Source: Kribbella sp. ALI-6-A
Lineage (GTDB): Bacteria; Actinomycetota; Actinomycetes; Propionibacteriales; Kribbellaceae
Assembly (NCBI RefSeq): GCF_001984195.1
Contig: NZ_MTQN01000011.1
Location: forward strand, 682,001 to 746,000
Length of the DNA: 64,000 nucleotides
Direction of reading: 5' to 3'
Shown: piece by piece, positions 40,362 through 55,238 of the stretch
How the letters are laid out: each line of letters opens with the position of its first letter
Numbering within the stretch: the first letter of the stretch is position 1
The notes under the pieces: generated by a model
The model's input: the letters and a program-made list of their open reading frames with translations, nothing else
What the model was told of the DNA's origin: nothing
The model's database searches: none
Made by a program: the position numbers and the translations under genes

Positions 40362-42524
40362 TTACTCGGCTTCGAGACCGGAGTCGTTGAGGAGGGGCAG
40401 CTCTTCGTCGGAGGCCGCGAGCTCTTGTTTGACGACGGTCATGGCGAGGCCGCCGGGGTAGCCCTTGCGGGCGAGCATGCCGATCAGGCGGCGCATCGCG
40501 ACCTGCCGATCGAGCGAACGCATCGAGCGGAGCTTCTTGCGAACCAGCGCGCGGGCAGTCTCCTCCTCCTGGCTCGAATCGAGTTCCTCCAAGGCGTCGC
40601 GAGCCAGCTCGTCGTCGACGCCTCGACGACGCAGTTCCTGAGCGAGGGCTCGCTTGCCCAGTCCTCGGCCCCGGTGTCTCGATTCGACCCACGCGGTCGC
40701 GAACGCGGCGTCGTTGATCAGCCCCACCTCGGTGAACCGATCGAGCACCTCATCGGCCACCTCGTCGGCAATCTCACGATCCGCTAGTACGTCGGCCAGC
40801 TCCGCCCGCGTCCGCGGCTGCCCCGTGAGCTTGTCGAGCAGAATCGTCCGCGCCACCTGGTACGGATCAGCGTCCTGGTCCACGGAAGGATCCGCCGGCA
40901 TCCCCGGTTCGTCCCCATCCCGAGCACCCCGCCGAGGCCGATTCCCGAACCCACGAGTCGGCCGCCGTCCAGAACGTCCACGAGCCGACCGGCCACTGGA
41001 TTCAGCACTGACACCGTCGCTGGATCCCGCCCCGACACCGTCGCGCCCCGCCGATGAGCCCGCTTGCGCGCCGCTACTTCCAGCACTCCGGCCACCTATC
41101 GGCGATCCAACGCCGATCCCGGTTGACGAGGTGCTCCCAGCGCCTCCACGACCTGTCGGCGATCCGCTCGCAACGCCACCTCGCCTCGGCGACGAACCCT
41201 CTTGCGCTCCGCCATCTCCAACATCCCGGACACCGACCGGCGATCCGGTTCCGGCCGATGATGCGCTCTCAGCGCCTCCACCGTCGACCGGCGAACCGCT
41301 TCCAGCGCCCCCGCGCCTCGGTGACGAACCCGCGCGCTCCCCACCGTCTCCAGCGTCCCCGCCTGCAACCGGCGAGCCTTCCAAGTCCATGGCGCGACCA
41401 GCGCGCCCGGCACCGTCCGCGCGTCCAGGCGCTCTGGTTTCGTCCGAGCCCCGTAGCGGTCTCCCGCTCGCATCCTGCTCCGAGCCTGGCGTGGGTCCAG
41501 CACCCGCCGACTTCCCCAGGCTCCTGGTCCGGCCGGAGCTCTTGGCCCGGGCGGACGCCTTGGTGCCGCCGGAATCCACGGCGCTTGTCGCGGCATCGTC
41601 AGCTTCTCGCGCACCGAGAAGGTGCGCAGCGGGCGCAGCACCGTTCGTGCCGTCGTCGACCGCAGCGTCGTCCGACGAAGGCGCACGCCGGCGACTCGCC
41701 GAAGTCGCGCCCTTGGCATCGAGCGAGTCCCACGGGTCAGCCTCATCGGCCGTCGGTCGGGCTTTCTCGGAACCGGCACTGTCCAGCGAGTCCCACGGAT
41801 CGGGCTCGTCGGAGTCCGCACCGCTGCTGGGAGACGTACCGATTTCGAGCGAATCCCAGGGATCCGGCTCTTCAGCCTGGGCCTGCCGTCGTTCGGCCTT
41901 GCGGCGGCGGGTTTCGTCCTCGAGGGCGTCCCACGGATCCAACAACTCCGGCGCGACGGCACGAATGCCGGAGACCGCGCCGGAGCGACCCTCGTACGAC
42001 GGCCAGGCGTCGTCTTCGTCAGGGGTTTGCCGAGCGGCGGAAGTCCTGCCCAGGCGGCGGCTCTGCCCCGCTCCGGTCCCAGAGGACTTCGCGCCCCAGG
42101 CCCGCGGGGTAACACCAGACGAGTCCCGCAGGTCGGCTGCCTGCGATTCCGCCACGGCGCCGAGTGATTCACCATCTGCCGAAGTAGTTGCTACAGGCAA
42201 GTTGTCGGGCTCCGAAGCTCTGCCAGGCGCGGCGTCACGCTTGGCACGAGGTGAGCCCGAGGCCGCTGACGTGCGGCTCTGCCTGCGGGTGGCCCGAGAG
42301 GTCTCGGGCCGGGAAGTCTCTGCCCGGGAGGCGTCGCTTGCAGACGTCTCCGAGGCGGGAGAGCTGGACCGCCCCCGGGTGCGGTCCGCGGTGTTGTCGC
42401 GGTCCGCACCGTCGGGGGTCCAGAGGGTGGAGCCGGTTGGCCCGTCAGCCAGGAGCTTGCGGGCCAACGCCAGCCGCTCGGCCTGGGTGAGGCCGGTGGC
42501 GGGCTGGGGATCAGAAGTCGACAT
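40362..42524 (-). CDS. recX: RecX regulator with an exceptionally long disordered N-terminal extension
   Basis: 720 residues, against 150-270 for most RecX. The C-terminal 175 residues are Rec[41 protein letters not shown] and [20 protein letters not shown], with the tandem three-helix repeats. The preceding 540 residues are low-complexity Ser/Gly/Ala/Arg. They include four DPWD motifs (starting near residues 196, 221, 242 and 263) spaced 21-25 residues, the last three reading DPWDSL, and a conserved-looking N-terminus [17 protein letters not shown]. RecX binds and inhibits RecA filaments. ATG 42524 overlaps the recA stop by 14 bases. Confidence 0.93.
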
Positions 42525-43581
42525 CGACCTCGACCGGCGGCGTGTCGGCAGCGACCTCACCCTGGCCGATGCCCATCTTCTCCTTGATCTTCTTCTCCAG
42601 CTCGTTGGCCAGATCGGGGTTGTCGCGCAGGAAGTTCCGCGCGTTCTCCCGGCCCTGGCCGAGCTGGTCGCTCTCGTAGGTGAACCAGGCGCCGGCCTTG
42701 CGGACGAAGCCCTGCTCGACGCCGAGGTCCAGCAGGCTGCCCTCGCGGCTGATGCCCTGGCCGTAGATGATGTCGAACTCGGCCTGCTTGAACGGCGGGG
42801 CCACCTTGTTCTTCACGACCTTGACCCGGGTCCGGTTGCCGACGAAGTCGGTACCGTCCTTCAGCGACTCGATCCGGCGGACGTCCAGCCGGACCGACGC
42901 GTAGAACTTCAGCGCCTTACCACCGGTCGTGGTCTCCGGGGAGCCGAACATCACGCCGATCTTCTCGCGCAGCTGGTTGATGAAGATCGCGGTGGTGTTG
43001 GTCCCGCTGACCGCACCGGTCATCTTGCGCAGCGCCTGGCTCATCAGCCGGGCCTGCAGACCGACGTGGCTGTCACCCATCTCGCCCTCGATCTCGGCCC
43101 GCGGCACCAGCGCGGCCACCGAGTCGATCACGACGATGTCGATCGCGCCGGAGCGGATCAGCATGTCGGCGATCTCCAGCGCCTGCTCACCGGAGTCGGG
43201 CTGGGAGATCAGCAGGGCGTCGGTGTCCACGCCGAGCTTGCGGGCGTAGTCGGGGTCGAGCGCGTGCTCGGCGTCGATGAAGGCGGCGATACCGCCGGCC
43301 CGCTGGGCGTTGGCGACGGCGTGCAGCGCAACGGTGGTCTTACCCGACGACTCCGGACCGTAGATCTCCACCACGCGACCGCGCGGCAGCCCGCCGATCC
43401 CCAGCGCGACGTCGAGCGCGATCGACCCGGTCGGGATGACCTCGATCGGCGCCCTGCCCTGCTCACCCAGCCGCATCACGGAGCCCTTGCCGCACTGCCG
43501 CTCGATCTGCGTCAGCGCGGTCGCCAGCGCCTTCTCGCGATCCGCCGCGGCCCGCTCCGCACTCGCTGCTGCACCAGCCAT
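42511..43581 (-). CDS. recA: RecA recombinase
   Basis: 356 residues, full length. Walker A GPESSGKT near residue 70, Walker [21 protein letters not shown]2 region and the usual [20 protein letters not shown] are present. It forms filaments on single-stranded DNA, exchanges strands and triggers LexA self-cleavage. ATG 43581 has AGGTGG upstream. Two promoters are visible: a RecA-NDp-type (43658-43680) and a LexA-controlled one (43745-43774). No intein. Confidence 0.98.
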
Positions 43582-43657
43582 CTGACTGCCACCTGACCCA
43601 TCTAGTCGTTTCGGACCGCTGACCCAGCCGCCCGGAGGAATTTCGTTGTCGTCAGTG

Positions 43658-43680
43658 AAGGTATGGGTTGCCACCGACAA
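43658..43680 (-). promoter_or_regulatory. RecA-NDp-type (ClgR-dependent, LexA-independent) promoter of recA
   Basis: On the minus strand TTGTCGGTG (43672-43680), eight bases, TACCTT (43658-43663). This matches the mycobacterial RecA-NDp consensus TTGTCRGTG-N8-TANNNT at every fixed position. Confidence 0.85.
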
Positions 43681-43744
43681 TTTCCGAAGCGGTCCTGAAT
43701 CTGTGGACAACTCCGGGCCCCGCCTGCGAAACCCGTACGGCACA

Positions 43745-43774
43745 AAATAACCCGAACACGTGTTCGAATCCCAA
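43745..43774 (-). promoter_or_regulatory. LexA (SOS) box in the distal recA promoter
   Basis: CGAACACGTGTTCG (43753-43766) is a perfect palindromic actinobacterial SOS box. It lies in the 18-bp spacer between TTGGGA (43769-43774) and TTATTT (43745-43750), so LexA binding would block polymerase. It is also 59 bases from the divergent start at 43825. Confidence 0.93.
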
Positions 43775-43824
43775 CTGACACGCCGACAACTCCCGAGAAC
43801 CCGGCGGCACCTACGCTGGCCGAC

Positions 43825-44616
43825 GTGACAGACCGTCCCGACGTCCCCGACTCCGCCGTCGTCCTCGCGCTCAGCCGGGTCGAGTTCGGCATCGACTCGG
43901 TGCTCGACGCGCTCCGCACCCAGGACCCGTTCGGCATCCGCAGCATCCTGACCGAGTACTCCGCCCAGGAGCAACCCAACCTCGCCGAGAAGGCGCTCAT
44001 CCTGACCATCGACCGCCTGCTCCGGATGAGGGTGCCCGGTCACGCCGAGTGGCCGACCCTCCCGCTGGCCGAGCGCTGCGACTGGTGGGTCGAGCGGCTG
44101 GGTGGGTTCGCCGCGGTCATCGCGGGACTCCCCCGGCTCAGTGGTGCGGCCGCGGACGCGCTGCCGATCAAGGACACCCTCGGCGCCGCAGTACAGGCGA
44201 TGGTGATCGGTGCCGTCTGCCGCGAGTACGGCGTGGAGGCGCACGCGGACCGTACGGCGGTGATCGCCCGGGTCCTGACCAACCGGCCGATCACCCCTGA
44301 CGACGTGCTCCGGTACGACGACCCGACGCAGGCCGGCCAGGACGTGGCCAAGCAACTGGGTCTCGGCGACGACTCCGGGGAGCGCGGCCTGCGCCAGGGA
44401 GTCCGGCTCGTGTGGCGGATCTCCAAGCTGTTCGGCGGACTCGGCGAGGTCTTCGAGGACCGCCCGCGCGGCAGCCTCGGCGCACGGGCCATCGGCAAGC
44501 TCCCGGGCGTCGGTGTGGTCGGCGGCTTCTTCGACGAGCGCAAGGGCATCCGCAAGGCCGCATACGCCGCCGCGGACCTGCTGACCAGCAGCGTGTTCCG
44601 CGTCAAGCCGGTCTGA
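43825..44616 (+). CDS. Conserved hypothetical protein, EcsC-like
   Basis: 263 residues. The segments [20 protein letters not shown] and [20 protein letters not shown], plus [20 protein letters not shown] near the C-terminus, are arranged as in EcsC-family proteins (peripheral membrane proteins of unknown role). No signal peptide or clear membrane helix. GTG 43825 is preceded by TACGCT with seven bases between, so it is probably leaderless. It diverges from recA; the LexA box is upstream of its -35 region. Confidence 0.65.
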
Positions 44617-54288: not shown

Positions 54289-54324
54289 CCTGTGGACAAC
54301 CCCTTCGCACTGCTCTGAGACGGA

Positions 54325-54356
54325 TACCTTCTCTGACGAGATCGAACACCTGTTCG
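54325..54356 (+). promoter_or_regulatory. LexA (SOS) box and -10 upstream of the DUF4262 gene
   Basis: CGAACACCTGTTCG (54343-54356) fits the actinobacterial SOS box, with one substitution in the centre relative to the recA box. A TACCTT -10-like element (54325-54330) precedes it, so the box covers the likely start point. The ATG is 20 bases beyond the box. Confidence 0.85.
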
Positions 54357-54375: not shown

Positions 54376-54888
54376 ATGATCGACGTCCGCCGAGAGCCGC
54401 CCAGCGGGGAGTACGCCGACAGGGTGCTGAGGCTGATCGGATCGCACGGCTGGACCGTCGAGCACATCGGGTCGCCGGACGGCCGGAGGCCGGCCATCAC
54501 GTCGACGGTCGGGTTGTGCTTGCGCGGGCATCCCGAGTTCGTGGTGTTCGGTTGCGACGTGCTGGAGGGATTCATGCTCCTGGAGCCGCTGGCGCTGGCC
54601 GTTGAGAACGGGAAGCGTTTTGAGTCCTGTGCTGAACTGACCGACCTCTCCGCGGGTTCGGAGCGGTTCGGGCTGATCTCTTACCCGAACTCCACCCGGC
54701 ACCTGCCGACCGTGAACGAGTTGTTCCGCCGGGAGGGCACCGCACCGATCCCGGCACTGGTGCTCTTCAGGTCAGGCCTTCCCGAAACGCCGACGCCACC
54801 CGGCACGGCGAGGCGTGCGCGATACACGACGTACAGCGTCGCCACGTACGAGGCGATGCGAGCGGCCGCCCGGGCGGAGGCGCAGTGA
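54376..54888 (+). CDS. DUF4262 protein under LexA control
   Basis: 170 residues. ITSTVGLCLRGHPEFVVFGC, then FMLLEPLALAVENGKRF and RFGLISYPNSTRHLPTVNEL, correspond to the DUF4262 family, whose function is unknown (some members are linked to stress or toxin immunity). It is soluble. ATG 54376 has GAGAGGAGAAGG upstream. A LexA box lies just before it, so it should be SOS-induced. It follows nei after 87 bases, with its own promoter. Convergent with clgR. Confidence 0.88.
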   Translation: MIDVRREPPSGEYADRVLRLIGSHGWTVEHIGSPDGRRPAITSTVGLCLRGHPEFVVFGCDVLEGFMLLEPLALAVENGKRFESCAELTDLSAGSERFGLISYPNSTRHLPTVNELFRREGTAPIPALVLFRSGLPETPTPPGTARRARYTTYSVATYEAMRAAARAEAQ

Positions 54889-54953: not shown

Positions 54954-55238
54954 TCAGGCCGCAACGACCTCGGGCTCGATCCTCGTGTGGGCCAGCACCA
55001 GGGCTTCTTCGCGCGCCAGGTCCTCGCTCACCTCGGCGAAGATCATCGAGAGCGGCACGTCGAGGGCCGTGCAGATCGCTGCCAGCAGCTCGCTCGAGGC
55101 TTCCTTCTGACCGCGCTCCACCTCGGAGAGGTAGCCCAGGCTCACCCGGGCCTCGGCGGACACCTCGCGCAGAGTGCGCCCCTGGCGCAGTCGCTTACGC
55201 CGCAGTACGTCGCCCAGCAGGCCACGAACCAGCACCAT
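54954..55238 (-). CDS. clgR: ClgR-type XRE transcriptional activator
   Basis: 94 residues. [20 protein letters not shown] and [20 protein letters not shown] are the ClgR helix-turn-helix; the protein ends [20 protein letters not shown] then IEPEVVAA. The C-terminal Ala-Ala fits the ClpP degron described for Streptomyces ClgR. In corynebacteria, streptomycetes and mycobacteria ClgR activates clp protease genes, and in mycobacteria also the RecA-NDp repair promoters. ATG 55238 has GGGAG. The pncC-clgR order is the common one. Confidence 0.9.

Follow-up and report, generated by a model that had tools for sequence, protein, structure and literature searches.

The region upstream of recA in this actinobacterium raises the question of which signals set the expression of the gene. 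A preliminary description of the locus had proposed two recognisable promoters at positions 43658-43774, a proximal one of the RecA-NDp type that depends on ClgR and a distal one of the LexA type, and had taken their co-occurrence as a sign that the dual circuit of mycobacteria is broader than that group. The analysis was carried out on the window, the 64-kb stretch of DNA that contains the locus, in which all of the recA promoter elements are read on the minus strand. The features are listed below.

42517-43581, minus strand: recA coding sequence, 355 aa, with its ATG at 43581 (Pfam RecA, 2e-143, and RecA_C)
43650-43651, minus strand: predicted P1 transcription start, by analogy with leaderless sites of the same motif
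43658-43680, minus strand: P1, a promoter of the RecA-NDp/PafBC type, TTGTCGGTG-N8-TACCTT, with TTGTCGGTG at 43680-43672 and TACCTT at 43663-43658
43702-43710, minus strand: DnaA box TTGTCCACA, an exact match, 31 nt upstream of the P1 TGTC core
43744-43749, minus strand: P2 -10 element TATTTT, from the sequence and the genus alignment
43754-43765, minus strand: LexA SOS box GAACACGTGTTC, inside the P2 spacer
43769-43774, minus strand: P2 -35 element TTGGGA, separated by a 19-nt spacer from the -10 element; TTG is invariant in the genus alignment
43775-43784, minus strand: block CGGCGTGTCA(G), which abuts the P2 -35 element and is near-invariant in 29 genus genomes
43825-44616, plus strand: divergent gene, 263 aa, without a Pfam family, present in 38/38 genus genomes
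54954-55193, minus strand: clgR homologue (HTH_3), the regulator named in the preliminary description

Several observations concern the surroundings of these features. The divergent gene was seen to adjoin recA in those genus genomes that were inspected. It has TACGCT 7 nt ahead of its GTG start, so it may be leaderless. Downstream of recA, a recX-like frame (40362-42560, minus strand) could extend to as much as 732 aa, the N-terminal part being long and of low complexity. Elsewhere in the window, a second exact TTGTCCACA (54291-54299, minus strand) lies close to a second SOS box (GAACACCTGTTC, 54344-54355), with the two located between a gene for an Fpg/Nei-type glycosylase and a DUF4262 gene (54376-54888, plus strand). 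Near this gene pair, TACCTTCTCTGACGA is a near-repeat of TACCTTCACTGACGA at recA.

Both promoters were found with exactly the sequences proposed. A search of the whole window for P1, with three mismatches allowed, returned a single site, which was exact (chance expectation 0.42). The SOS half-sites alone occurred twice in 64 kb (0.79 expected), which is within chance, and a generic sigma-70 scan found no promoter. Given that the bare SOS sequence is not significant over this length, conservation was taken as the test, using the recA upstream regions aligned from 29 of 38 genomes of one genus (probably Kribbella). Both halves of the SOS box were kept in 29/29 genomes, nearly all of which also retain TTG on one side of the box and a TANNTT-like -10 element on the other. 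The P1 TGTC core and its -10 element (TANCNT) were likewise present at constant spacing in 29/29. The strict TGTCRGTG, on the other hand, was seen at P1 in only 3/29 (the window, L130 and L144), the commonest form among the genus genomes being TGTCCG; the window P1 is thus near the class consensus and atypical for its own genus. At P2, the perfect palindrome GAACN4GTTC (GAACACGTGTTC) sits between TTGGGA and TATTTT and so overlaps the promoter, as is expected for a LexA-regulated SOS promoter. A LexA repressor is encoded in the genome (PF01726 match at C1:24988, in a 295-aa frame), with a second match in a 475-aa frame on C12. The presence at recA of both P1, of the RecA-NDp/PafBC type, and P2, of the LexA type, is therefore confirmed.

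The P1 motif is not restricted to recA. Using TGTCRGTG-N8-TANNNT as the strict motif and the reversed pattern as the control, we detected 26 sites genome-wide compared to 0 for the control, and for 25 of the 26 a coding-like open frame begins within 80 nt downstream. The genes that follow these sites include, in addition to recA, uvrA, uvrB, the NAD ligase gene ligA, radA and genes for a RarA-like AAA ATPase, a UvrD/PcrA helicase, an SRAP protein, an AP-endonuclease-like protein, a PDDEXK nuclease and two YjbR proteins. Adjacent pafB (WYL+WCX) and pafC (HTH_PafC+WYL+WCX) genes are encoded at L127, on the same contig as pafA. The recA locus thus has the sequence-level features expected of a RecA-NDp/PafBC promoter, namely an exact motif, pafB and pafC in the genome, and a DNA-repair regulon that shares the motif. 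Among 101 P1-type sites in seven genomes, the start codon lies 5-9 nt past the -10 element in 71% (11% for shuffled sequences) and 6-7 nt past it in more than 60%, which suggests that most PafBC-type sites would give leaderless transcripts. P1 of recA departs from this pattern, as its transcript would have a leader of 70 nt. As the start codon of the leaderless sites falls 6-7 nt past the -10 element, the P1 transcript probably begins at 43650-43651.

The breadth of the promoter pair was assessed over 100 taxon labels, comprising named loci, class genomes and the genus, nearly all of them from the class Actinomycetes. Upstream of recA, TGTC-N12-TANNNT was found for 94 labels, the SOS box GAACN4GTTC for 87 and the P1 core together with the SOS box for 82; for class loci without the strict motif, relaxed patterns matched 36/42 (reversed control, 1). 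On these counts the P1 and P2 pair at recA is close to a class-wide trait, in agreement with earlier reports of RecA-NDp beyond mycobacteria. The preliminary description was thus correct that the dual circuit extends beyond mycobacteria, but this is not news, as the proximal promoter type was first described at Streptomyces rimosus recA (Ahel 2002). With the dual promoter already known, its presence here was to be expected.

Across 148 class genomes, the strict motif occurred 2433 times compared to 73 in controls. A PafC match was found in 147/148 of these genomes, so co-occurrence of PafC and the motif has low power within the class. In the wider phylum, many genomes carry PafC without enrichment of the strict motif, indicating that the motif is mainly a class-level feature. 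Two genomes whose PafC match is absent or weak (L181 and L199) nevertheless retain a near-box and a relaxed form of the P1 core at recA, a point against the model favored below. Two genomes of family f80 (G438 and G421) contained 198 and 118 strict motifs with controls of 0, the median of class genomes being 9. For Streptomyces, a 2022 study of S. venezuelae LexA mentioned a preliminary motif search that suggested the PafBC motif is unconserved there (PMC9380542). We found the strict motif at recA of 8/8 named Streptomyces loci, and 24 to 70 strict sites (0 to 3 for the control) in the genomes of family f4, in which P1 of recA corresponds to the one in named Streptomyces. These counts bear on the question left open in 2022 of whether the motif is conserved in Streptomyces.

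A third element, overlooked in the preliminary description, is a DnaA box between the two promoters. The third footprint in the genus alignment, TTGTCCACAG, contains the nine-base TTGTCCACA, an exact DnaA box with the CACA core intact. It was kept in 29/29 genus genomes and changed solely at position 3, where G, A or T occurs; this is the degenerate place in DnaA boxes. Among 129 recA upstream regions, exact TT[AGT]TCCACA was present in the sense orientation in 49 and in the antisense orientation in 0, and allowing one mismatch gave 103 sense versus 8 antisense label-positions. The 93 near-boxes vary chiefly at positions 1 (T/C), 2 (T/C), 3 (any base: G 59, A 24, C 7 and T 3) and 5, while hardly any variation is seen at position 4 or in the CACA core, a degeneracy profile such as would be expected for DnaA boxes. 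A reversed-TTGTCCACA control was discarded because it reads ACACCTGTT, a portion of the common SOS box; antisense counts, word permutations and position permutations served as replacements. A literature search turned up no relevant report of a DnaA box at recA, weak evidence given the partial coverage of that search, and we think that the box between the recA promoters is new.

The position of the box follows the helical repeat relative to P1. Sense boxes lay 22, 30-34, 42, 49-52, 58-62 and 64-65 nt from the TGTC core, with few at 72 nt or more and none at 23-29, 35-41, 43-48 or 53-57 nt. With one locus counted per label, the distance for 35/37 was in a whole-turn window, namely 22, 30-34, 42, 49-52 or 60-64 nt (mean of 8.9 and maximum of 18 over 20000 permutations), and the resultant R at 10.5 bp was 0.78 (permutation mean 0.15, maximum 0.49), shared ancestry being incompletely corrected in both comparisons. 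The whole-turn windows were drawn after the data had been seen; the Rayleigh tests are independent of them. The phasing was also detected when the 30-33 class was left out (R 0.67, p about 3e-4). No phasing was observed for the spacing between the box and the SOS box (p 0.23), and an alignment with P2 and LexA was rejected. The box was also ruled out as the -35 element of another P1, with nothing TANNNT-like 16-19 nt downstream.

DnaA as the reader of this site is putative, and the phased box might be real but recognized by another protein. One conceivable candidate is a second PafBC, given that TTGTCCACA and TTGTCRGTG have TTGTC in common three turns apart; an unknown activator is another. 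We consider a reader other than DnaA unlikely, however, as the freedom at position 3, the frequent C at positions 1 and 2 and the near-fixed CACA are DnaA-like, and the P1 core keeps TGTC, unlike the box.

Somewhat less likely still is that recA has an ordinary LexA and PafBC dual promoter, as documented for mycobacteria (PMC5656591, PMC8223512), in which the DnaA box plays no regulatory part. Consistent with this possibility, the box is rare among P1-type promoters other than recA, most of which lack it: the 101 other P1-type sites included 6 sense boxes. Those few are well placed, however, with 5 of the 6 at exactly 31-33 nt, which favors a functional box. The five composites precede a PDDEXK nuclease gene in the genome of the window and, in two other genomes, three DUF222 genes, which are paralogues within one genome, and one family-unassigned gene. 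In addition, no recognisable box was found at the sampled recA genes of Mycobacterium, Gordonia and Cellulomonas, though P1 and the SOS box are present. The box is thus not essential to the promoter pair, as several lineages have the pair without it. Against a box devoid of function, its single orientation, 29/29 conservation, DnaA-like degeneracy and phasing with P1 would be hard to explain.

The canonical ClgR operator, CGCYNANRGCG, had 0 matches in the recA intergenic region, and its 6 occurrences in the window are not above chance. Control of P1 by ClgR, as the preliminary description proposed, is probably wrong and is by far the least credible reading, since the 2011 M. smegmatis study that reported ClgR recognition of the motif (cited in PMC5656591) was followed by studies of binding in vivo, reporter assays and structures that assign it to PafBC (PMC5656591, PMC8223512, PMC6789036, PMC11804915), and the clgR gene encoded in this genome carries little information when homologues occur in 148/148 sampled class genomes, motif-enriched or not.

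On balance, we favor a model in which recA is expressed from two promoters, both inducible by DNA damage, and in which a third control site, the putative DnaA box, tunes P1. The parts played by P1 and P2 in this model are taken from mycobacterial work. LexA on the SOS box, between the -35 and -10 elements, would block P2, and RecA-ssDNA would trigger LexA cleavage, leading to the opening of P2. In mycobacteria, PafBC activated by ssDNA grips the -26 TGTC and adapts the housekeeping sigma factor (PMC5656591, PMC8223512, PMC6789036, PMC11804915). By analogy, P1, which is without the usual -35 element, would be engaged by PafBC on its -26 TGTC. With the P1 start placed at 43650-43651, the box would lie on the helix face of P1 near its -55 position (about 55 bp above that start), with the presumed P2 start about 30 nt upstream of the box. 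Because the box is phased with P1, we infer that DnaA, or another reader of the site, touches the PafBC-RNA polymerase complex. The protein recruited to the box, most likely DnaA, would contact this complex from upstream and thereby tune P1; once bound, it could also slow or impede transcripts coming from P2. Judging from the sequence, PafBC, LexA and DnaA would all bind this region in this organism, and for the direction of the DnaA effect on P1 we lean toward activation. The output of recA would in this way be tied to replication status via DnaA.

We regard the odds as roughly even that this arrangement holds more generally, such that recA in most Actinomycetes would receive three inputs, from LexA at P2, PafBC at P1 and DnaA at a box located 2-6 whole turns away on the same face, with the composite also serving PDDEXK nuclease and DUF222 genes and having been lost in mycobacteria. 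If the phased box does act as proposed, the supply of RecA would be linked directly to replication initiation or replication stress, and the box would be a first sign of another factor cooperating with sigma adaptation by PafBC. Mycobacteria are where the LexA/PafBC circuit has been studied most, and the box could have escaped notice because the sampled mycobacterial recA genes do not have it.

Mycobacterial recA resembles the locus described here in that its distal promoter contains a LexA box, its proximal promoter has TGTCRGTG-N8-TANNNT and pafBC is encoded in the genome; it differs in that no box was found in the sampled loci, whereas here a DnaA box lies between the promoters and is phased with P1. 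Streptomyces rimosus recA (Ahel 2002) has the same type of P1, and in most of the named Streptomyces recA loci a DnaA-type box is present at a distance of 33 nt, comparable to the phased box here, for which our literature search, of partial coverage, found no published report. Unlike here, the SOS box is degenerate (GAACATCCATTC) in most named Streptomyces loci. In B. subtilis, DnaA has a part in a RecA-independent stress response (PMC8203912) and thus carries information on replication stress, similar to what we propose here, though recA under a promoter of the PafBC type is not described in that source. Finally, DnaA and LexA co-regulate uvrB and recN in E. coli (Wurihan 2018, via PMC8203912). 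Those are other genes, without PafBC or helical phasing to a sigma-adapting activator, but they share with the arrangement proposed for this recA locus the placement of the replication initiator alongside LexA at DNA-repair promoters.
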